From Pirellula sp. SH-Sr6A (GTDB lineage: Bacteria > Planctomycetota > Planctomycetia > Pirellulales > Pirellulaceae): a stretch of DNA of 64,000 nt. The translations under genes and the position numbers were made by a program. Shown here piece by piece: positions 24,978 to 36,794 of this stretch; the stretch's first letter is position 1, and each line of letters starts with the position of its first letter. Location of the stretch: positions 2,523,988 through 2,587,987 of the forward strand of contig NZ_CP011272.1 in assembly GCF_001610875.1 (NCBI RefSeq), given 5' to 3'. Below the pieces are notes generated by a model that saw only the letters and a program-made list of their open reading frames with translations, ran no database searches and had not been told where the DNA came from.

Positions 24978-26084
24978 TTAAGAAGGTCGCTGGAATCGCG
25001 GACAGTAGATCTGCCGCTGGGTGACCAGCGTTCGAGCCTCCTTCATACTGCGCACGCTTCCCGCCGCCAATGAGAACATTCGACTGAAATGGGTCGTGTA
25101 GTCGATCCAACGCTCGGGATCCAATCCCAACCGCTCCAACACCGGAGGCACCTCCTCGGGTGTAAACCCTTTCTTGCCTTCCCGGATAATCCTCGCCGTC
25201 GCATCCAATAGCTGGATATAGTTCATCGATGACAACGGTACCACGCCCTTGTCACTGCAACGCTTCTTCGTCTTGCTCGGTTTGCTCCCCTGGCTTCCTC
25301 TCTCATCGATCAGCTCTATCGGGGCTAAATACGCGTCTGGTAACAGACGCTGTGGCAAGGCAGGATCTTCGCTGGGCGCTGGGGACTGCGGCGATTCCGT
25401 TTGAGTTCCCTCCGGGGGCGGTTCCGGCTTGGCAAGCTCCTGCTTCAGGGCTGCGATTCGCTGGGCTACCGACGTGTACTGGGATGCCTCGAGCGTCTGG
25501 GCTACCTGGGCGCGGATGGGATTCAAATCCACATAGCTCACGCAGGCCAAGATGGCTTCGTCATCGAGCAACCGCACCGCCTTGAACCGGCCATTGAAGA
25601 GACGGCCCGTCTCTTGGAGCTCCAGGTTGGCGCGCTTGGCGACTCGCTGGCAAAGGATGCGCATCCACCACGAGATATCGCTCAGCCGCAAACGGATCTC
25701 TTTCAACTTCTCGGGCTTGGTGCGGATCGCATCGAGCTCCTTTTCGTTGGGCTCCGCTGGAGTCTTGTCTTTGTTCTTCCTCTTGGGGCACATCAACATC
25801 CAGCGCCTGGCCACTTCGGTATCGTCCCACTCTTGGACAATGTCGGGGCGAGACCGCAAGACCGAGTGGAAGTGGTTGCTCATGATGGCATGACCTAGGA
25901 CGTCGATGCCAAAGTACTGGGCTTGCTCCTCGATCTGCTTGGTGATCCAGAGACCGCGATGGCTGTGATCTTTGCGGGTGAGAGCATCATCGCCGAGCAA
26001 GAAGTACTTGCGAACAATGGTGGCGATGGTGTGGACCGTAGCGACTTCGTCGGGACGGTAGATATCGGCGCGGGCGCTGCGCAT
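24978..26084 (-). CDS. REP-associated/IS200-like HUH (Y1) transposase
   Basis: 368 aa from the ATG at 26084, which has AAGGA 9 nt upstream; the frame is open back into the repeat array (GTG at 26276) but that part is not conserved-looking. HUH motif in IMSNHFHSVLR; SYVDLNPIRAQ matches the conserved Y-x-x-L-N-P-x-R-A motif of RAYT/TnpA_REP proteins; GRLFNGRFKAVRLLDDE is the usual segment before it. The insert WMLMCPKRKNK and a C-terminal Pro/Glu-rich linker plus about 100-aa extra domain make it longer than classical RAYTs, as in planctomycete homologues. Expected to nick and rejoin single-stranded DNA at the flanking repeats (inference). Confidence 0.85.
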   Translation of the reverse strand: MRSARADIYRPDEVATVHTIATIVRKYFLLGDDALTRKDHSHRGLWITKQIEEQAQYFGIDVLGHAIMSNHFHSVLRSRPDIVQEWDDTEVARRWMLMCPKRKNKDKTPAEPNEKELDAIRTKPEKLKEIRLRLSDISWWMRILCQRVAKRANLELQETGRLFNGRFKAVRLLDDEAILACVSYVDLNPIRAQVAQTLEASQYTSVAQRIAALKQELAKPEPPPEGTQTESPQSPAPSEDPALPQRLLPDAYLAPIELIDERGSQGSKPSKTKKRCSDKGVVPLSSMNYIQLLDATARIIREGKKGFTPEEVPPVLERLGLDPERWIDYTTHFSRMFSLAAGSVRSMKEARTLVTQRQIYCPRFQRPS

Positions 26085-26240
26085 GATCTGCATTCCTTGG
26101 GCGAAAGGGAAAACATCGGCAAAACAAGGGACGATTCGTTCGGGTTGCCGGGCACGATCCTGTGCATAGAAGTGATTGGAGCGTCTCGAGACCCCAGATA
26201 CAAGAGTGGGGAAGGGGGCGCCAAAAAGATTTTTCAGGAC

Positions 26241-26737
26241 ACCGGAACTGGGGACACTCACGCGTACTGGGGACACTCACGCGTACTGGGGACACTCACG
26301 CGTACTGGGGACACTCACGAGGACTGGGGACACTCACGAGGACTGGGGACACTCACGAGGACTGGGGACACTCACGAGGACTGGGGACACTCACGAGGAC
26401 TGGGGACACTCACGAGGACTGGGGACACTCACGAGGACTGGGGACACTCACGAGGACTGGGGACACTCACGAGGACTGGGGACACTCACGAGGACTGGGG
26501 ACACTCACGAGGACTGGGGACACTCACGAGGACTGGGGACACTCACGAGGACTGGGGACACTCACGAGGACTGGGGACACTCACGAGGACTGGGGGACAC
26601 TCACGAGGACGGGGGACACTCACGAGGACGGGGGACACTCACGAGGACGGGGGACACTCACGAGGACGGGGGACACTCACGAGGACGGGGGACACTCACG
26701 AGGACGGGGGACACTCAACTGGACGGGGGACAGACAT
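26241..26737. repeat. Right tandem array, 19-bp unit, about 26 copies
   Basis: GGGACACTCAC recurs every 19 bp from 26251 to 26574 (18 copies); one extra G shifts the phase at 26594, then seven more copies to 26708 and a degenerate last copy at 26727. The first three intervals carry GCGTACT between cores, the main block GAGGACT, the last block GAGGACG, so the array has three sub-blocks. All three forward frames lack stops; the translated three-unit repeats are not evidence of a protein. Confidence 0.97.
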
Positions 26738-26853
26738 GGGAGGTTAAGGAAGGGGTGGGACACAGTGCAGTTCGGTTGAGAACCGGAGACACCTTCAAAT
26801 GCAATTCACCGCGGCGCGGATACGGCATCCCTGATTGATCGTGTTTATCCTCA

Positions 26854-28113: not shown

Positions 28114-28139
28114 AAAAAAACCCAGCGAGTTGCTGGGTT
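28114..28139 (-). terminator. Rho-independent terminator copy within attL
   Basis: On the minus strand AACCCAGC-AACTC-GCTGGGTT followed by T7. Identical to the terminator behind tRNA-Glu at 36250-36275; before integration this was the single tRNA terminator or its element-borne copy. Confidence 0.8.
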
Positions 28140-28189
28140 TAGATGTCTCGGGAGGGGCTATGATACCCTACCCAATGACCCCGACGGGA
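28114..28189. other. attL
   Basis: 76-bp repeat matching attR except at 28160 (A for G) and 28166 (C for G). It contains the terminator hairpin AACCCAGC-GAGTT-GCTGGGTT and a 14-bp copy of the tRNA-Glu 3' end (TGACCCCGACGGGA as read on plus). Beyond it, GAAC after two mismatches extends the match into a T-loop mimic. Confidence 0.92.
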
Positions 28190-28399
28190 TTAGAACATGC
28201 CCACCATTCCCAAGGGAAATCGCAAAAAGCCGACTTGGTTCCCCTACCGGTTCCCCCGTCGAGCCCCATCACAAGCGATCTGAGGGAGTTGCATCAATTG
28301 TGGGATCGATTGGATGAGTCGGCCCGTCGGGACCTGCTGGCGGTGGCTCGGGGGTTGGCCGACGTTGCTTCATCGAGGGGCGTGGCTGAGAATGAGTGA
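28190..28399 (+). CDS. Detached C-terminal tail of the element integrase (69 codons, no own start)
   Basis: In the frame of the integrase ORF as it enters the att repeat, the sequence after attL reads LEHAHHSQGKSQKADLVPLP, then a Pro-rich hinge and an amphipathic segment DLRELHQLWDRLDESARRDL-LAVARGLADV, ending at TGA 28397-28399. The frame through the repeat (KKPSELLGLDVSGGA...YPMTPTG) is identical in attL and attR. Excision joining attR-left to attL-right would therefore append this tail to integrase residue 416. In the integrated state the frame is open upstream to 27914, but that part is chromosomal flank and unlikely to be a gene. Confidence 0.7.
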   Translation, partial: LEHAHHSQGKSQKADLVPLPVPPSSPITSDLRELHQLWDRLDESARRDLLAVARGLADVASSRGVAENE

Positions 28400-28637
28400 G
28401 TCGGCCCCCTATCGATCGGGTCCTTTGCCGATCCTGCGATTCCATCGCGACGTTAAAACGGCCCGAATCCGTTTCGAAAAATCCGTCCGGTGGCGAGCCG
28501 TGGGGGCTTGGGGGCGGTGTGCGTGTAGCTCCCCCATCCCCCAAGCGACGGGAGTCCTAACTAATTTTCAATGGCGCTGTTGGGCGACGATCCCGCCGAG
28601 GCTGATGGCCCAATGCGATTGGGACCCCGGTTGGTAG
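28392..28637 (+). CDS. Possible 81-aa ORF overlapping the integrase tail
   Basis: ATG at 28392 overlaps the TGA of the integrase tail, so it would be translationally coupled to the integrase only in the excised circle. Reads MSESAPYRSGPLPILRFHRD and on to ...LMAQCDWDPGW. Basic, no recognised family, no independent ribosome binding site. It may be chance. Confidence 0.3.
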   Translation: MSESAPYRSGPLPILRFHRDVKTARIRFEKSVRWRAVGAWGRCACSSPIPQATGVLTNFQWRCWATIPPRLMAQCDWDPGW

Positions 28638-29288
28638 GGGCGGTTCTATTCTATGCGTTTCGGTAATCGATCACAAAACTGCTATATCCTGCCGTTATGA
28701 AAGGAAGGCCCGGACTGTGTGCGTGAAACATGAGGGCCTTCGCTACCCCATTCCGAATTGATGCGTTCGGAGGACCCCTAAAGGCCCCTCCCCCCTGGGT
28801 GGAAATCCAGGGCTGAGCGAGAGCATCGACCCAGTGAATCCCCACGGAGCCTGTCCCCAAAATTGAGATTTCCTAGGGGGGGATGAAACCTACCGAGATG
28901 GTAGTCAGCGACCGCTCGCCCCCGCATTCGCATGTTTTTTGTTGTTTTTCTAGGGGGTTGGGGAAGGTGGCCAAACGAGTCGCACAATACAAGTGGGTGG
29001 GATACTGAGTGCCCGGGGGTAGTCAAAATCTGGGCGGAATGAGCCTAGCGACCGCTCGTTCCCGCGTGCAAGAAACTTTGGGTCAAAACGTTTCGTTAGA
29101 CATTAATGGCCCGAGCCGTTCCAATGATGCTCGGGGGTGGTTCCCTGTGAGTGAATCAGCCGCGACTAACCATCGCGGCGAAGGGGTGAGCGAACTGATC
29201 ATTCGCTAAGCGCCGATCGGCTGGGGATGGGGTCCTATCCATTCCTGGCCCATCGGCGGCCCATCTACAATAAGATAGGACGTCTGAG
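28638..29288. other. Gene-poor control region of the element (candidate origin / regulatory region)
   Basis: 651 bp without a convincing gene. It holds a perfect 8-bp stem GAAGGCCC/GGGCCTTC with 22-nt loop (28704-28741), two copies of AGCGACCGCTCG (28907-28918 and 29047-29058, 140 bp apart, both followed by a CCCGC), and two TCTAGGGGG-like motifs (28871-28880, 28949-28957) around a T-rich stretch. Repeated sites in the only long non-coding part of a replicating element suggest an origin or regulator-binding region; this is inference. Confidence 0.4.
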
Positions 29289-30431
29289 ATGGCGGGCTGT
29301 GATATTGACGCAAAGCAAGTGCTTCGTGAGATCGATGCGTTGGTTGACGACTTCAAAACCCTGAGGCTAGCAAGTGCTAAAGGTACAGTGAGGACCGACC
29401 GAGAGGCGATGTGGAGCCTATCCCCAATTGCGAAACCGGTTGCGAGTACTATCGGGCTAGCAAGGCGAAACTTCAAACCGCATCCGAGCCACTGGATGGG
29501 TGGCTTGGGCGTGGAGTTGGGTGATATTAAACCATCGACATACTCTGAAATGGAATCCGCTCAGACTCACTACGCGAGACAAACGGGCGTTCCGTTTGTC
29601 AATTCGGTGGGTGAGTCGCTGGTGCTTAGCTCCGGTTGGAGTAGTTGGCATGAGATCCATCTATCGGGCGATCATGCTAAGGAAAGCCGCGATGTGATTA
29701 AGCGAGCGAATGCCTGGGTGAATGGACGGAAGTCTATCATCTATCGGGCGTTGTTTTACGGTCGTGACACAACATTTAACGACTGCTGTTGGCCCGACAT
29801 TGCTCTGATGGTCGGCGAGCTGCCCGATGCTGATGCGACGATGTCCAAGCCGAAATGGAGTGTCGAGATCGGCTGGGTTTACTTCAATCCTGATGCCGAT
29901 GGCAATCCCCGTTTGAGTCCATCATTCGAACGAATGGTGCAATCGGTAAGCGTCGAGATGTGGAAAAAGCGTAAGGCGGAGGATTGGCAATGTTTCGGGC
30001 GATGTGAACCATTTGCGAGCATCACCGAAGCCGATGAACTATTCATCGGCGATCCTCCCGAGGTTATGTATTGCGAGCAAGAACTGAAACCATTCCTGAG
30101 GGATTCGGAGCTAGCGCTGGACTGGCTGCGGCGATGGATCGAGGATTCGATGAGAGATGCTATCCCCTCGGAGCCTATTCCGTCGGCGGAACTGAAACAA
30201 TCGAATGCCGCTGGGTTGAATAAGAAGAGCCCCGCAAAGATGCGATCTCCGGGGAGGAAACCGAAGGAACTGACGAAGGAGGAGAAAGAGATCAGGGATC
30301 TATGGAAGAGCGGGCGGTTTCTTACTCTGAATGATCTGGATGAGCATCGGGGGGTTGACTGGGGCGAGACGAAAAAATTGCTAGATGCCCTACGGAAGCG
30401 TCGAAAAAGGGCTGAGGAACGGACGAAATAG
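29289..30431 (+). CDS. Element protein of unknown function, 380 aa
   Basis: No family recognised. The N-terminal 60 residues are helical (DAKQVLREIDALVDDFKTLR). The middle has aromatic-rich mixed structure (WHEIHLSGDHAKESRDVIKR; WSVEIGWVYFNPDADG). The C-terminal 75 residues are very basic and probably bind nucleic acid (GRKPKELTKEEKEIRDLWKS, ending LRKRRKRAEERTK). AGGA lies about 10 nt before the ATG. First gene of the element next to attL and separated from the replication operon by 200 bp, the position where cargo or defence genes often sit; its actual role is unknown. Confidence 0.8.
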   Translation: MAGCDIDAKQVLREIDALVDDFKTLRLASAKGTVRTDREAMWSLSPIAKPVASTIGLARRNFKPHPSHWMGGLGVELGDIKPSTYSEMESAQTHYARQTGVPFVNSVGESLVLSSGWSSWHEIHLSGDHAKESRDVIKRANAWVNGRKSIIYRALFYGRDTTFNDCCWPDIALMVGELPDADATMSKPKWSVEIGWVYFNPDADGNPRLSPSFERMVQSVSVEMWKKRKAEDWQCFGRCEPFASITEADELFIGDPPEVMYCEQELKPFLRDSELALDWLRRWIEDSMRDAIPSEPIPSAELKQSNAAGLNKKSPAKMRSPGRKPKELTKEEKEIRDLWKSGRFLTLNDLDEHRGVDWGETKKLLDALRKRRKRAEERTK

Positions 30432-30454
30432 ACGAATTAGAATTCCGTCCGTTC
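30417..30454. promoter_or_regulatory. Inverted repeat 1 near the alpA-like gene
   Basis: GAACGGACG (30417-30425) and CGTCCGTTC (30446-30454) form a perfect 9-bp inverted repeat with a 20-nt centre containing GACGAATTAGAATTC. It overlaps the end of the 380-aa gene and lies about 180 bp before the AlpA-like start. Confidence 0.6.
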
Positions 30455-30536
30455 TGGGTGGAAGAATTTTCTTGAATTGTCGATGCCTGTTTTCGCTTGT
30501 CTGAATTGGTCGAGCGAAAGAATTCTTTGCGTGCCG

Positions 30537-30561
30537 ACGGACGAATTAGAATTCCGTCCGT
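30537..30561. promoter_or_regulatory. Inverted repeat 2 near the alpA-like gene
   Basis: ACGGACG (30537-30543) and CGTCCGT (30555-30561) flank AATTAGAATTC. The 23-bp stretch GACGAATTAGAATTCCGTCC-GTT is an exact duplicate of 30431-30453. Two identical symmetric sites upstream of a small HTH gene make a likely operator pair for the element's regulator. Confidence 0.65.
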
Positions 30562-30632
30562 TTCCGCACTTACAAAACCTCACATGCGTTGCGGCTGTCG
30601 CGGCGTGATTCTTTTGAATGTGAGGTTTGATC

Positions 30633-30848
30633 ATGAGCAAAGCAAGATTGATTGGGATCACAGAACTGGCGGAACTGCTAGGCGTTTCCGGTCGGCAAGT
30701 GTACCGACTGATGAACGACGGTCTGATGCCTCCCCCGGTTCGGCTGGGTGGTTCCTTGCGATGGGATCGATTGGCGGTCGATCAATGGATTCAAAGCGGC
30801 TGCCCGAAAACGTCGAGCCCCCAAGCATCGAAAGGGGGTGATCAATGA
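30633..30848 (+). CDS. AlpA-like / MerR-type helix-turn-helix regulator
   Basis: 71 aa: LIGITELAELLGVSGRQVYR-LMNDG is the HTH, PPPVRLGGSLRWDRLAVDQWI the wing typical of AlpA/excisionase-type (HTH_17) proteins. The ATG at 30633 follows GAGGT; a TTG at 30627 is possible but less likely. Such proteins activate integrase or act as recombination directionality factors. Overlaps the next gene by 4 nt (ATGA), and is preceded by two identical inverted repeats it may bind. Confidence 0.85.
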   Translation: MSKARLIGITELAELLGVSGRQVYRLMNDGLMPPPVRLGGSLRWDRLAVDQWIQSGCPKTSSPQASKGGDQ

Positions 30849-31081
30849 GCTACCCAAAAAACCGTTGGTTGCGGGTCGGATCGCATGAGTTTTTTGTGGC
30901 AGAATCGGGAAAGTTCCGATGGGCGGCGGATTGGGTGATGACCCAATGGGATGAGGAGTCGGCCGAGGAATGGAGGAGCAATCTAACGGCCCTCAACAAG
31001 ATGCCCCCGGGGTGTTCCGATGATGCCCGTCGGCTGCGCGATGCTGAGCGATGGATGGATCGAAAAGGGGGTGACGCATGA
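30845..31081 (+). CDS. Small element protein of unknown function
   Basis: 78 aa, Trp-rich (six Trp) and acidic: HEFFVAESGKFRWAADWVMT, then a helical C-terminus (DDARRLRDAERWMDRKGG). No family recognised. ATGA overlaps on both sides couple it to the AlpA-like gene before and the DUF2958 gene after. Confidence 0.7.
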   Translation: MSYPKNRWLRVGSHEFFVAESGKFRWAADWVMTQWDEESAEEWRSNLTALNKMPPGCSDDARRLRDAERWMDRKGGDA

Positions 31082-31443
31082 GGACCCTGCGAAATCGAAA
31101 GGGAGCCGGGATGCTGCTCCTCAATGAAAAGCTGGCCAAGCCGATCCCTTCACTGATGGCCGACGAAGTGACATCGGCGAGCGATCCTATGGCCTATGTC
31201 CGATTCTTCACGGTGCGCGGTTGGAGTTGGTGGCTGCTGGCCCTGGACCGCGAGAGCCTGATCGGATTGTCCTATGTCGTTGCCCCCGGTGAAGCGATTT
31301 GCAATGGAGAGATCGGAACGGTCGATCTATCGGAGCTGGCCGAGTTGGAGGTGATGCGTGGATTGGGCGTCGAGCGTGACACGTCGTTCGAGCCGAGTCG
31401 GCAATCTGTGATCTGCGGCGAGGAGGTGAAACATGCTAAGTGA
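31078..31443 (+). CDS. DUF2958-like protein
   Basis: 121 aa. After a basic N-terminus it has the DUF2958 pattern: LLLNEKLAKPIPSLMADE, then YVRFFTVRGWSWWLLALDRE, GLSYVVAPGEA and LSELAELEVMRGLGVERD with a C-terminal F-x-P. These proteins are common in mobile elements, often near replication or anti-restriction genes; their molecular role is unknown. Starts within the stop of the preceding gene and overlaps the following HTH gene by 11 nt. Confidence 0.7.
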   Translation: MRTLRNRKGAGMLLLNEKLAKPIPSLMADEVTSASDPMAYVRFFTVRGWSWWLLALDRESLIGLSYVVAPGEAICNGEIGTVDLSELAELEVMRGLGVERDTSFEPSRQSVICGEEVKHAK

Positions 31444-31681
31444 CCACGACATCGATCGCATCGCGGATCGGATCATTGAGGCCCTTGGTGGCCGACTATC
31501 CCAATCCAATGAGATCTTGGATGTCCATGGAGCGGCGGAACTGCTCGGGTGCTCGGTGCCGACGATTGAGCGTCGGACTCGCGACGGTTCGATCCCATCG
31601 GTGAGGATCGGAAGGCTGCGGCGGTATCGTCGAGCCGATCTGCTGGCCCTTAATGCGAAAGGGGGACCATGTGATGCGTAA
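31433..31681 (+). CDS. Excisionase-type DNA-binding protein
   Basis: 82 aa. An N-terminal helix (HDIDRIADRIIEALGG) precedes the HTH_17 domain EILDVHGAAELLGCSVPTIE and wing IPSVRIGRLRRYRRADLLAL, the pattern of excisionase-family proteins. This is the second small HTH protein of the element; one may be the directionality factor for excision and the other a transcription regulator, but the sequence does not say which. Overlaps the DUF2958 gene and the primase start. Confidence 0.85.
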   Translation: MLSDHDIDRIADRIIEALGGRLSQSNEILDVHGAAELLGCSVPTIERRTRDGSIPSVRIGRLRRYRRADLLALNAKGGPCDA

Positions 31682-32720
31682 ACATCGAAGATCCCCCCAG
31701 GTGAAACGACCTGTTCATTTTAACATCGATGAGGTGAAGCATCGAGCGAGTGGCCGATGGGTGGAAATCCTGTCGGCGGCCGGGATTCCCTCGGAACTGC
31801 TAGAGAGTCGGCGAGGGATGCCATGCCCTCGGTGTGGTGGCTCCGATCGGTTCGGCACGATGCGAGATCTCGCGATGCGTGGGGCTGTGTTGTGCCGACA
31901 TTGTTTCAACGGTGATACCGATCCCCGAGCGGGTGATGGGTTGGCGACGTTGCGGTGGTGGCTCGGTGTGAGCCTGACTGCGGCGACTGAATGGCTCGGC
32001 CTTTATCTCGGATGTGGCCATGCTGCTCCTCGGGTGCGTGAGATTGTTCAATCGATCTCGATCCCTCGGGAGATCGATCGAAAGCGGTTTGCGTTGGCGG
32101 CTGAGGTATGGGCCCGAAACATGCGGCCCGAGTGGCTTGAAAAGGCTGCTGCGATGCTCGGCCTACCGATCGAGCCGTTGGTTCGGTTGGGAGTCGGCTG
32201 GAGCCCAGAACATCGAGCAACAAGCTGGCCGATGCGAGATGGCGAGGGAATCGTGATCGGGATCCGGTTGCGATGCCCGCAAACGACCCAGAAATGGGCT
32301 GTGCGTGGCTCGGCTGCTGGCCTGTTCTATTGCCCGACCATGCTGGCGATCGAGCGGCCTGAGCGGCTGTGGTGCGTGGAGGGCCCAACCGATACGGCGG
32401 CGTTGCTGTCCGTGGGGTTGAGTGCGGTCGGCGTTCCGTCGGCCGGTGGGGGTGCTGATCTGCTGGTGGCGTTGGCTCGGCGAGTTCGGCCCGGCGAGGT
32501 GGTGATCGTGGCCGATCGGGATGATGCTGGTCGGCGAGGAGCGGAGCGGCTGGCCGATGCCCTGGTGATCGTGGCCCCTGTGCGAGTTGCGACCCCTCCC
32601 GAGGGGGTGAAGGATGCTCGGGCGTGGGTGGTCGGTGGAGCGGATCGAGCGGCGATCGAGTCGATGGCTGATTCTGCTCCGGTGCGATCGATCGTTATGG
32701 GGGAGGTGAACCATGGGTGA
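31674..32720 (+). CDS. Primase with zinc ribbon and TOPRIM domain
   Basis: About 348 aa from the ATG at 31674 (a GTG lies 3 nt upstream). Zinc ribbon CPRCGG...CRHC (Cys51, 54, 74, 77) with RAGDGLATLRWW after it is the phage-type primase ribbon; the TOPRIM domain has the conserved Glu in WCVEGPTDTAAL and the Asp pair in VIVADRDDAGRRG. Expected to make primers for replication of the excised element. Overlaps the DUF3987 gene by 8 nt, so primase and its presumed helicase-like partner are made together. Confidence 0.88.
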   Translation: MRKHRRSPQVKRPVHFNIDEVKHRASGRWVEILSAAGIPSELLESRRGMPCPRCGGSDRFGTMRDLAMRGAVLCRHCFNGDTDPRAGDGLATLRWWLGVSLTAATEWLGLYLGCGHAAPRVREIVQSISIPREIDRKRFALAAEVWARNMRPEWLEKAAAMLGLPIEPLVRLGVGWSPEHRATSWPMRDGEGIVIGIRLRCPQTTQKWAVRGSAAGLFYCPTMLAIERPERLWCVEGPTDTAALLSVGLSAVGVPSAGGGADLLVALARRVRPGEVVIVADRDDAGRRGAERLADALVIVAPVRVATPPEGVKDARAWVVGGADRAAIESMADSAPVRSIVMGEVNHG

Positions 32721-34602
32721 GCAAAACAAAACGTTGAGCCTGAGAGCATCCAAGGCCCCCGATGGTCGAGCCCGTATCGTTGCGTCGGTCGATGATCGCG
32801 AGCTGTGGGCGGGAGTGTGCGATCTGTGGAGCGATACCGATCGAGATCGGTTGGCTGAGGCTATTCATCAAGATTGCCCAGCGATCCCGGTGGCCGACAT
32901 TCGACGTCGGCTGCTGGTGATCGATCGCGAGAATCTACCGGCCGGGGATGGATCCAGCGAGTCGGCGTGGGATGATCCTGATCCCCTGCCGGATCCATTG
33001 CCAAGCGTAATGGCGTACAGTGCCGACCTACTCCCGCGAGAGGTCGGTGATGTGGTGGATGACATCGCGGATCGGATGCAATGCCCACCCGATTTTCCGG
33101 CCGCATCGATGCTGGTGGCGTTGGCTGCGGTGATCGGTTGCCGGGTCGGTATAAGGCCCAGACGGTTCGATGATTGGCTTGTAGTTCCGAATCTATGGGG
33201 ATGCGTCGTTGGCCGTCCCTCCCTCAAGAAGTCTCCCGCTATTGGCCACGCAGAAAAGCGGATCCGAGCATTGGAGGCCCGGGAGCGAGAAAAAATCGCC
33301 GACGATGTGGCGGCGTTTGGAGTTGATGCGATCCTCTGCGAGGCTGACATCAAAGCGGCTAAGAAGGCGATCGAGAAGGCTGTGAATGCTGATAACCGCG
33401 AGGAGGCCCGTCGATTGGCTCTCGAAATCCAAGCGATGGAGGAAGCATCGCCACCCACCCCAAGGCGGATCATCACGACGGATTCAACCATTGAGAAGCT
33501 GGGGGAGATGTTGAACAAATATCCCCATGGGATGCTTCTGTGGGTGGATGAACTGGTGGGATGGATGCGAGGGCTGGATCGTCATGATATGGCTGGGGTT
33601 CGGCAACAATTCCTGACGCTATGGAATGGCCAAGGGAGGTTGAACATCGATCGAGTCGGCCGAGGTGAAACGGTCGTTGAGCATCCATGCTTGTCGGTGT
33701 TTGGCTGCGCCACCCCTGGCGGGATCGGTGATTATGTGGCGGCGGCGCTGCGTGGTGGCCGAGGTGACGACGGATTGATTCAACGGTTGCAAGTTTTGGT
33801 TTGGCCTGATTCCCCCCGCGAGTATCGACAAGTGGACCGATGGCCTAATTCGGTGGCCCGAGATCGATTAGTATCGGTATTCGAGAGCTTGGCCGACTTG
33901 GACGTTGAGTCATTTGCTGAGCGTGAAGAGTTCGACGATGGGAGCGGCATTCCGTGGGTTCGGTTTGATGCCGATGCTCAATCCGTGTTCGATCGATGGG
34001 ACGTTGAGACGCAAAACCGGATCCGAGCGGGTGATCTGCCCGAGTCGTTTGAGAGTCATTTGAGCAAGTATGCTTCACTGATCCCATCGATTGCTCTGAT
34101 CGTCCATCTTGTGAAGTGGCGGCGTGGCCCAGTGGATGCCATGTCGGTAGAGATGGCGTTGAAATGGGCTGAATATTTGGAGAGCCATGCGGCCCGGTTG
34201 TATTCGATCGCGATGGCTCCCGAGCGTCGTTTGGCGAAACAACTATTGAGGAAGCTGATCGCATGGCCCGAGACTAAGCCGATCCGAGTTCGCGACATCG
34301 TTCGACATTGCTGGAGCGGTTTGGATGATGAGGAAGTAGTGGCTCAAGGACTGGAGATGTTGGCCGATGCTGGATGGGTTCGAGCTGTTGCCGTTCGGCC
34401 CGAATCCGGTCGGCCGACGACGAACTATTTGCTCCACCCGCGAGCGGCTCAGTTTTTCGAAACTCTCAAAACACGAACTGACAAAACCGACGAAACCCGA
34501 CCTGAGGAGAGTTCTGTCAGTTTTGACAGTGCCGACTTAGGGGGAATAGAAAAAAACGGGATCCCTGAGCCCTCGGGTGGTCGAGTTCGGGGAGTGATCT
34601 GA
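32713..34602 (+). CDS. DUF3987 / YfjI-like replication protein
   Basis: 629 aa. The segment WGCVVGRPSLKKSPAI is the DUF3987 equivalent of a P-loop, TTDSTIEKLGEMLNKYPHGM and LLWVDELVGWMRGLD give the Walker B-like Asp-Glu, and GQGRLNIDRVGRGETVVEHP with SVFGCATPGGI follow as in this family. These proteins accompany TOPRIM primases in integrated elements and are thought to be helicase-like. A long helical insert (residues about 190-245) and a C-terminal winged-helix-like part are present. Ends in a TGATG overlap with the next gene. Confidence 0.82.
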   Translation: MGEQNKTLSLRASKAPDGRARIVASVDDRELWAGVCDLWSDTDRDRLAEAIHQDCPAIPVADIRRRLLVIDRENLPAGDGSSESAWDDPDPLPDPLPSVMAYSADLLPREVGDVVDDIADRMQCPPDFPAASMLVALAAVIGCRVGIRPRRFDDWLVVPNLWGCVVGRPSLKKSPAIGHAEKRIRALEAREREKIADDVAAFGVDAILCEADIKAAKKAIEKAVNADNREEARRLALEIQAMEEASPPTPRRIITTDSTIEKLGEMLNKYPHGMLLWVDELVGWMRGLDRHDMAGVRQQFLTLWNGQGRLNIDRVGRGETVVEHPCLSVFGCATPGGIGDYVAAALRGGRGDDGLIQRLQVLVWPDSPREYRQVDRWPNSVARDRLVSVFESLADLDVESFAEREEFDDGSGIPWVRFDADAQSVFDRWDVETQNRIRAGDLPESFESHLSKYASLIPSIALIVHLVKWRRGPVDAMSVEMALKWAEYLESHAARLYSIAMAPERRLAKQLLRKLIAWPETKPIRVRDIVRHCWSGLDDEEVVAQGLEMLADAGWVRAVAVRPESGRPTTNYLLHPRAAQFFETLKTRTDKTDETRPEESSVSFDSADLGGIEKNGIPEPSGGRVRGVI

Positions 34603-34925
34603 TGATGCTGATCGAGCGATTGCGAGCCCTCGGGGTCGAATTGACCATCGAGGGAGATGGCTTGGCGTTCGATGCTCCCGAGGGTGTTTTATCGGCGGAA
34701 CTGATCGAGGAGATGAAGGCCTATCGATCGGAGTTGATCGCAGCGATTGAACATCGAGATGCCCCTGGGATGGATCCCATCGGGGGCGTTTTTTGTCCGT
34801 TCTGTCGTGGCGATCGGTTCGAGGATGTTTACATGGGCTGGCGTTGCGTGAGGTGCGATCGGCTCGCGTGGTGGTGGCTCGGGGAATCGTTGGTTCGGTT
34901 CGACGTTGGGGATCTGAAATTGTAG
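34602..34925 (+). CDS. TubC-N-like protein with zinc ribbon
   Basis: 107 aa. Residues 1-50 (LIERLRALGVELTIEGDGLA; APEGVLSAELIEEMKAYRSE) match the TubC N-terminal docking fold often found alone in mobile elements. The second half has two Cys pairs, FCPFC and RCVRCD, forming a zinc ribbon. Probably an accessory DNA- or protein-binding part of the replication module. TGATG coupling with the DUF3987 gene; 150 bp then separate it from the integrase. Confidence 0.75.
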   Translation: MMLIERLRALGVELTIEGDGLAFDAPEGVLSAELIEEMKAYRSELIAAIEHRDAPGMDPIGGVFCPFCRGDRFEDVYMGWRCVRCDRLAWWWLGESLVRFDVGDLKL

Positions 34926-35077
34926 GGCTGGGGAATTATCTGGCCCTCGGATCGTGGGGGCGGTATTCTGTGGGTGCATCACGGCTAGGAAATTCGAAGC
35001 CGAAAGCCGCCACCCATAGCGGTTGCCGTGGTGTTTTCTTTATGGGTTCTGTGATTCAACAAATGGGAGTTGATCTG

Positions 35078-36349
35078 ATGGCGAGCGTAACGCGCAAGGC
35101 CCAAGGTGGCCGACTAGGTTTTCGGATCCGGTTTTATGTCGATGGGAAACGTCGAGAGCTTTACATTCCCGAGACAACAAAGAAAGCGGAACGACAAGCG
35201 AACATTGTGGCGCAGCATTGCGAGGAGTTGAGCAAGGCGAGGGCAAACAACGTGTCACCCTCACCCGATGCCGTGAAGTGGGCGAACGGAACTGAGGGGA
35301 GCATTCGGGAGAGTTTGGTGGCGTGGGGACTGGCGGATCCCGTGAGTGAGAAGCTGATTTGTGATGAGGGGCGTTTGTTGGCTCCCTTCCTAGATGCTTA
35401 CGTTGCGAGCCGGTCGGACCTGAAACGCACTACCGAAATCAACTACAAGCAAACTCGGCGGCTGTTGGTTGAATACTTCGGTGCGTCGAAAGTGTTAAAG
35501 AGCATCACTGCGGCCGATGCTGAGCGGTGGCGTCGATGGATGTTGGTCCGCCCCATGGCGATCGCGACCGTTTCCAAGCATTGCAAGCGAGCGAAAACGA
35601 TGTTTGGAGAGGCGGTGAAGGATCGGCTGTTGGTATCGAGCCCGTTCGCTGTTCTGAAAGGTGGCAAGGAGTCGAATGAGTCGCGGCATTTTCTTGTGAC
35701 TGCCGACGTTTCCAAAGCGATCTTGAATGCTTGCCCGGATGCCGATTGGCGAGTGATCTTTTCGTTAGCTCGGTGGGGAGGTCTGCGATGCCCCTCGGAA
35801 GTGTTGGCTCTCAAGTGGTCGGACGTCGATTGGGAGAAAGGGAGGTTCCGAGTCGATTCCCCGAAAACGGGCGTTCGTTACTGCCCCCTATTCCCCGAGA
35901 TCCGATCGGCCCTGAAAGACGCGTTCGATCCCGAGTTGATTTACTGCGTGAATAGGTATCGATCGGGGGAGCAAAACCTGCGGACTCAGTTTGGGAGGAT
36001 TCTCAAGGTGGCCGACGTGAAGCCATGGCCCAAGCTGTTCGTGAATCTGCGATCGACAAGGCGGACCGAGTTGCAAGAAAAATTCCCGGATCACGTCGTG
36101 AATCGATGGATGGGACATTCGGGGAAGGTGGCCGAGAAGCATTACCTACAAGTGACCGAGGAGCATTGGGGAGAAGCGACCCGTTTTGGTTCCCCCACCG
36201 GTTCCCCCATCGCGAAGCATTCGGGGCCCATCGTTGGAAATCAGCGCACAAAAAAACCCAGCGAGTTGCTGGGTTTAGATGTCTCGGGAGGGGCTGTGAT
36301 AGCCTACCCAATGACCCCGACGGGAGTCGAACCCGTGTTACCGCCGTGA
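35078..36349 (+). CDS. int: Tyrosine recombinase (integrase) of the element, integrated-state form
   Basis: 423 aa from the ATG at 35078 (GGGAG upstream). N-terminal arm-binding strands (RLGFRIRFYVDGKRRELYI), core-binding domain about 95-195, catalytic domain after 205 with Arg237 (GGLRCPSEV), Lys263 (SPKTG), Arg325 (VNLRSTRRT; the usual His three residues before is Val322), His347 (WMGHS) and nucleophile Tyr356 (EKHYLQV). The C-terminus crosses attR and its last seven residues (VEPVLPP) are encoded by the antisense of tRNA-Glu. After excision the frame would continue into 28190-28399, giving about 485 aa. Confidence 0.93.
   Translation: MASVTRKAQGGRLGFRIRFYVDGKRRELYIPETTKKAERQANIVAQHCEELSKARANNVSPSPDAVKWANGTEGSIRESLVAWGLADPVSEKLICDEGRLLAPFLDAYVASRSDLKRTTEINYKQTRRLLVEYFGASKVLKSITAADAERWRRWMLVRPMAIATVSKHCKRAKTMFGEAVKDRLLVSSPFAVLKGGKESNESRHFLVTADVSKAILNACPDADWRVIFSLARWGGLRCPSEVLALKWSDVDWEKGRFRVDSPKTGVRYCPLFPEIRSALKDAFDPELIYCVNRYRSGEQNLRTQFGRILKVADVKPWPKLFVNLRSTRRTELQEKFPDHVVNRWMGHSGKVAEKHYLQVTEEHWGEATRFGSPTGSPIAKHSGPIVGNQRTKKPSELLGLDVSGGAVIAYPMTPTGVEPVLPP
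36250..36275 (-). terminator. Rho-independent terminator of tRNA-Glu
   Basis: Minus strand: AACCCAGC-AACTC-GCTGGGTT then seven T, 37 nt past the tRNA 3' end. It also lies inside the integrase coding sequence on the other strand. Confidence 0.88.
36250..36325. other. attR
   Basis: Right copy of the 76-bp direct repeat, overlapping the integrase 3' end, the tRNA-Glu terminator and the tRNA 3' end. Differs from attL at 36296 and 36302 within the 76 bp. Confidence 0.92.
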
Positions 36350-36384
36350 AAGGGCGATGTCCTAGGCCTCTAGACGACGGGGCC
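36312..36384 (-). tRNA. tRNA-Glu (anticodon UUC)
   Basis: 73 nt. Acceptor stem GGCCCCG pairs with CGGGGTC (one G-T), D-arm TCTAG...CTAGGA, anticodon loop in CGCCCTTTCACGGCG with TTC, T-arm ACGGG-TTCGACT-CCCGT, discriminator A; CCA is not encoded. Its 3' end is the integration site of the neighbouring element and is rebuilt intact by the insertion. Confidence 0.97.
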
Positions 36385-36596: not shown

Positions 36597-36794
36597 CTAC
36601 TCGTCGGCAGCTTCCGTCTCTTTGCCTTCGTGGTTCCTCTGGATAGCATCGTATACTTCACGGCGGTGCACAGGCACTTCGCGGGGGGCTTCTACCCCCA
36701 ACCGAACCTTGTCACCGCGAATCTCGACTACGACAATCGTAATCTCGTTATTGATGACGATGCTCTCGTTCTTTTTGCGAGATAATACTAACAT
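36597..36794 (-). CDS. csrA: Carbon storage regulator CsrA
   Basis: 65 aa RNA-binding translational regulator: [20 protein letters not shown], then [27 protein letters not shown] with the conserved Arg44-equivalent that contacts GGA motifs. GAAGGGAAGT before the ATG is a good ribosome binding site. Acts as a homodimer on mRNA leaders in the cytoplasm. Divergent from the DUF6798-like gene. 212 bp without a gene separate it from tRNA-Glu. Confidence 0.96.

Follow-up and report, generated by a model that had tools for sequence, protein, structure and literature searches.

A planctomycete tRNA-Glu element with the attachment site inside its integrase gene, and a conserved integrase tail predicted to be exchanged on integration

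The element and the reading frame of its integrase

The window (the whole stretch analysed, 64,000 nt of Pirellula sp. SH-Sr6A, NZ_CP011272.1 positions 2,523,988-2,587,987, forward strand) contains an 8.1-kb integrative element that sits in a tRNA-Glu gene of this Pirellula-like planctomycete (Table 1). The element ends in a 76-bp repeat, the two copies of which are 97% identical, with mismatches at 28160/36296 (A/G) and 28166/36302 (C/G) and at no other position. Both ends agree fully over the final 23 bp of the att repeat, where the 3' end of the tRNA lies. Relatives of the element were not found in a plasmid collection, nor was an excised circle of the window element found. A perfect 23-bp direct repeat (30431-30453 and 30540-30562, 109 bp apart) precedes the AlpA-like gene and may be an operator or a replication repeat. 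To the left of the element lies a long array of short tandem repeats in which several frames are open (25923-26838, GDTHEDWGHSRGLGTLTRT...), and a small ORF that looks by eye like CsrA (36597-36794, minus strand) adjoins the tRNA-Glu integration site.

Table 1. Positions of the att repeats, genes and candidate recombination sites of the element, numbered from the first letter of the window
Feature	Position	Strand	Remarks
attL core repeat (tRNA-Glu 3' end, downstream spacer and terminator hairpin)	28114..28189		Matches attR fully over 28167-28189
Integrase C-terminal tail segment, 69 codons and TGA	28190..28399	+	In frame with the integrase only after excision
Candidate P'-arm site pair (TTGGTTCCCCTACCGGTTCCCCCGTCG)	28235..28261		Translated as the Pro-rich tail linker; score 21, against at most 12 in 60 shuffles
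Conserved tail motif DLRELHQLWDRLDESARRDLLAVARGLADVA	28277..28369	+	Corresponding region of the full-length homologue modelled as a helical hairpin
380-aa element protein	29289..30431	+	Without Pfam or PHROG match
HTH_17/AlpA-type protein	30627..30848	+	Candidate recombination directionality factor
Second HTH_17 protein	31433..31681	+	Candidate excisionase or regulator
Primase-like protein	31653..32720	+	Zn_Ribbon_Prim and Toprim
DUF3987 protein	32713..34602	+	Helicase-like in PHROGs
TubC_N-like protein	34602..34925	+	
Tyrosine integrase, integrated form, 423 aa	35078..36349	+	SAM_5 103-191, Phage_integrase 208-362
Candidate P-arm site pair (TTGGTTCCCCCACCGGTTCCCCCATCG)	36186..36212		Within the integrase reading frame
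attR core repeat	36250..36325		Overlaps the 3' end of tRNA-Glu
tRNA-Glu (ttc)	36312..36384	-	Integration target, restored by the element

The integrase is identified by its domains as a lambda-type tyrosine enzyme, with a Phage_integrase catalytic domain (PF00589, E 2.1e-10) and a SAM-like core-binding domain (PF13102, E 1.1e-6), and it also matches an integrase in PHROGs (E 6.9e-37). From the ATG at 35078 its frame enters attR and ends in ...YPMTPTGVEPVLPP with a stop codon at 36347-36349, giving 423 aa, the last seven of which (VEPVLPP) are tRNA-Glu antisense. A sequence-only reading of this stretch had described that ending, and recomputation agrees with it to the base. The same reading had followed the frame through attL for a further 69 codons, and here too the coordinates and translation were reproduced (LEHAHHSQGK...RGVAENE, TGA ending at 28399; 416 + 69 = 485 aa for the fusion). 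The other two frames at the left end close after 28 and 39 codons. In the window, integration swaps 69 integrase residues for 7.

The tail had further been described as a Pro-rich hinge and a helix. A helical hairpin is modelled in a homologue (see below). The description of the hinge needs correction: its residues, VPLPVPPSSP, are encoded by one copy of a DNA repeat (28235-28261), the other copy of which is within the integrase (36186-36212), and the repeat is probably an arm-type integrase site.

In relatives with tRNA-Glu beside a conserved 643-aa gene, an integrase of this kind is present at that locus in two (L253 and L261), and several others (e.g., L246, L249, L252, L254) gave no integrase match there, a distribution that fits a variable integration hotspot in the genus. 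Among these relatives an exact empty site with the left flank of the window was not found; that flank is unconserved. Some of the downstream stretches (L246-L254, L261) share a similar terminator hairpin, which is also carried by the element.

Tail and attachment site in planctomycete relatives

Integrase relatives with long stretches of upstream DNA were collected from planctomycetes, amounting to 89 integrase ORFs. Of these, 72 have an opposite-strand tRNA at the 3' end, and 67 of the 72 read into it; the targets are tRNAs for Glu, Arg, Val, Asn, Lys, Leu, Gln, Met, Ala, SeC and others. The far att copy was found on the same stretch for 35 elements, with the core inside the integrase ORF in 31 of the 35. 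Elements with degraded ends are missed in this count, because att copies were found as repeats by BLAST.

In 29 of the 31 paired elements, the integrase frame continues past the core for 45-110 aa (median 65), as compared with 10 of 62 readings in the other two frames (median 13.5). The exceptions are L064 and L072, each with a short tail that lacks the motif described below. Both belong to an integrase subgroup (L064, L069, L072) in which a tail-like helix precedes the core (e.g., ELQEVLAKIDGTGNTEVLQLLRLVD in L064), and they are the members of that subgroup with far ends located.

The tails share the consensus xxDxxLxxLxxxWPxLxxxxRxxILA, with W and L conserved at >90%, in one frame. For 21 elements held out of the tail profile (threshold E < 0.01), the motif was detected in frame in 16 and in none of the 42 off-frame readings; the other five held-out tails fall short of the 0.01 threshold. 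The profile detected the tail in 46 of 392 genomes of the phylum, and an improved profile in 226 of 398 genomes of the class. The sequence-only reading had named a tail absent or out of frame in related elements among the findings that would count against it; in most of the related elements examined, the tail is present and in frame. It had also regarded the tail as selected, and selection is clear from conservation of the motif, although not from dN/dS. Pairs chosen by integrase similarity have a high tail pN/pS (median 0.81, uncorrected and near saturation), and thus the tail evolves fast outside its core positions. A median dN/dS of 0.235, from pairs chosen by similarity of the tail, was set aside due to selection bias.

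We identified candidate arm sites on both sides of the core. In 21 of 31 elements, a direct repeat shared between the sequence preceding the core and that of the tail exceeds all 60 shuffles; within it a short word typically occurs twice, about 12 bp apart (e.g., GCGGTGCAGAATCCGGTGCAG). These repeats are mostly at about -100 to -135 and +41 to +58 around the core, a layout that matches the arm-type sites expected for lambda-like integrases and suggests binding by the enzyme. The whole predicted attP, comprising the core and the putative arm repeats on both sides, is inside the integrase reading frame. All of the invariant catalytic columns are upstream of the core, so the truncated form retains the active site.

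A free full-length form had been predicted to exist in relatives, and one was identified. An uninterrupted 492-aa integrase (L189/L236, ...GLNGGSGIRTSRQIPRKTAIPGRGGAKSGALDPETPAINSELVAVMNAWPKLPDAIRAGSLSMVRAAGG) is encoded in two overlapping IMG/VR contigs without a tRNA (L233-L236; 35.7 kb each, 26.3 kb identical between them). As these contigs are classed as linear, the claim is limited to an uninterrupted gene inside a virus contig, and the gene is that of a different phage rather than of the window element. The integrase of a third contig, a prophage relative (L239), is 82% identical over 1300 nt; the similarity ends 22 nt inside a tRNA-Ser, and past this breakpoint the L239 frame terminates in tRNA antisense. 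By this comparison, the L189/L236 integrase is the uncut form and that of L239 the integrated form. Matches from a phage collection were only remote integrases (<=26% identity), and a viral scan seeded with the window integrase gave remote matches only.

Fused copies are present elsewhere. In a tandem array (L061), the inner integrase is joined to the tail of the next element (...MTPTGLEHTAKSSEMTG...AAWPGLSADDRAAVLGIVRRA), with a degraded start; more fused copies, in L227 and L229, are fragmentary. Chromosomal long ORFs that end in the tail (L221, L222, L223, L225, L226) were rejected as full integrases, being unrelated upstream frames joined to the tail. An integrase-like end (LQVTEEHW) is fused straight to the tail motif, with no tRNA-like stretch, in L079 (1342-1626, G019:C201), which is probably a remnant. 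In L228 (303-1259, reverse strand, G629:C14), the same WP tail is joined to an ORF that is similar to the C-terminus of a serine recombinase and that enters an att stretch like that of a tRNA (APRVGLEVPPQ); serine integrases of the phylum may share the arrangement, or stand in tandem.

In an AlphaFold model of the 492-aa L189 form (mean pLDDT 74.7, from 10 sequences), the body is lambda Int-like and confidently predicted, confidence is low at 376-461, which corresponds to the translated attP, and residues 461-490 form a helical hairpin of modest confidence. The best PDB match of the model in Foldseek is lambda Int (1z1b, E 1.2e-11, 377 columns), and Tn1549 Int was also matched. As modelled, the homologue shares the overall lambda Int fold, N-terminal domain included. 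From these comparisons of reading frames, the tail swap is real at the gene level and widespread among planctomycete relatives.

Predicted effect of the tail exchange

The explanation that we consider probable as a whole is an integrase gene that contains attP, the tail of which is swapped on integration, leaving a shortened enzyme that is weakened or redirected, with the inserted state stable until an AlpA/HTH_17-type factor acts. A pair of arm-type repeats, a tRNA-derived core and a second pair of repeats would be read through as an apparently unstructured linker, past which the conserved helical tail closes the gene. On the circle, the integrase promoter would drive the full gene (485 aa). 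Integration would cut inside the linker, and the integrated copy would thus encode a shorter enzyme, the same promoter now driving a 423-aa form with the catalytic residues kept and the tail gone. The stranded tail would lie at the other end of the element, kilobases away and usually without a start site, and excision would rejoin it to the enzyme.

As the tail is conserved, it probably matters in the circle state. We infer that direction is controlled by the tail swap in planctomycetes, with the full-length form as the integration-proficient enzyme and the tail as an aid to integration or synapsis. Loss of the tail would weaken or redirect the enzyme, and the inserted state would be stable until an AlpA/HTH_17-type directionality factor acts, for which Mx8 (below) is a partial precedent. 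Candidates for this factor are the two HTH_17 proteins of the element, one of them AlpA-like. A broader proposal is tentative, and we lean slightly against it: that most tRNA-targeting elements of this family in Planctomycetia contain a state sensor. A helical tail present only on the circle would then serve as a module for integration or synapsis, integration would become one-way through its loss for as long as no directionality factor acts, and attP and the arm sites would have co-evolved as translated enzyme sequence.

The alternative that survives best has the opposite polarity: the tail would restrain or destabilize the enzyme on the circle, and the truncated, integrated form would be the more active or stable one. 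Mycobacteriophages offer a parallel, since integration strips a C-terminal degradation tag from their repressor (PMC8092301). However, the ends of the planctomycete tails are unlike ssrA tags (0 of 31 end in AA), the tail is modelled as a conserved helical hairpin that is probably folded, and the truncated form in Mx8 is reported to be less active or modified. We consider this polarity unlikely.

Far less probable is an ordinary overlap, in which a compact integrase gene happens to have attP at its 3' end, the frame stays open into attL by chance and the tail is functionless. The scarcity of stops in GC-rich DNA, the common placement of attP beside int and the high tail pN/pS in integrase-related pairs are all as expected for such an overlap, but the frame-specific motif in held-out elements (16/21 vs 0/42), the presence of the tail in 226/398 genomes and the phage contig with an uninterrupted full-length gene are not.

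The tail might also be made as a separate small protein in the integrated state, to which we give very little weight. The core (window 28150-28162) is GGGAGGGGCTATG in attL and GGGAGGGGCTGTG in attR, and the A/G mismatch between them gives the stranded tail of the window copy an in-frame ATG (28160), which follows GGGAGGGG; some other elements have longer upstream open frames. However, 25 of the 31 stranded tails lack an in-frame start that has a ribosome-binding-like motif; an in-frame ATG of any kind ahead of the tail motif is missing in about half of the 31. The tail is thus probably made only within the long form. It is just as improbable that the region past the core is kept for a P'-arm DNA site alone, with coding as a by-product: arm-like repeats do occur at +41 to +58 in most elements, but the protein motif is downstream of them and its residues are conserved in one frame (W and L >90%).

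A central question in site-specific recombination is what stops an integrase from reversing its own reaction. A gene product that is physically altered by its own reaction is a simple answer, support for which has so far come mainly from one myxophage. Its occurrence as the usual arrangement in a large family of planctomycete elements, with a conserved tail that can be swapped, makes dozens of natural pairs available for testing. We predict that the integrases annotated in such genomes are truncated, with the lost tail appearing as a hypothetical ORF at the opposite end of the element; element ends could be located in this way. Self-limiting integration tools are a possible use.

Comparison with known systems

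The claim of the sequence-only reading that such a switch is undescribed is contradicted by phage Mx8, in which attP is within the tyrosine integrase gene and the C-terminus is exchanged on integration (PMC4701971, PMC6070905, PMC4383910). The location of this attP has been on record since 1996 (PMC4383910). Integration of Mx8 replaces a 112-residue C-terminus with 13 residues, and the modified integrase is less active (PMC4701971); it is not inactivated by integration, and its specificity is modified (PMC6070905). Very few elements are known to have att sites inside their own integrase gene (PMC4701971). The class of mechanism is already known, mainly from Mx8.

Mx8 (and Mx9) resemble the planctomycete elements in having a tyrosine integrase, an internal attP and a long C-terminus that is replaced by a short, host-derived one. 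In Mx8 a MerR/HTH-type excisionase (Uoi) is likewise encoded nearby, and a tRNA-antisense-like stretch of its Int (STGLEPVLLGSF) precedes the tail. Mx8 Int has no detectable similarity to the planctomycete tail profile, and the match of the integrase body is non-significant. Mx8 is one phage, whereas the planctomycete form occurs in many elements of one bacterial class and at many tRNA genes. Arm-like repeats flank the core in the planctomycete elements, whereas one upstream tandem repeat, and no other, was found in the Mx8 stretch.

Archaeal SSV-type (suicidal) integrases have att inside the integrase gene, often target tRNA genes and are split by integration; a review calls them exclusive to archaea (PMC8371274). 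In those, the N-terminal part is parted from the catalytic domain and the enzyme is inactivated, whereas the planctomycete enzyme keeps its catalytic domain intact. The integration-dependent immunity of mycobacteriophages (BPs and others) also involves attP inside a gene and truncation of the product's C-terminus on integration (PMC8092301), but the truncated protein is the repressor and the part removed is often a degradation tag, unlike the planctomycete case, in which attP is in the integrase gene. Streptococcal ICEs in rumA have att inside the integrase gene, and integration alters the length and C-terminus of the integrase (PMC4701971); they differ in having a serine integrase and a protein-coding target, and in that both proteins are read in a different frame after the exchange. 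In the open-access papers searched, no large bacterial family that combines a conserved, swappable tail with embedded arm-like sites was found. New here are the scale, a conserved tail unrelated to that of Mx8 and the embedded arm-like sites.
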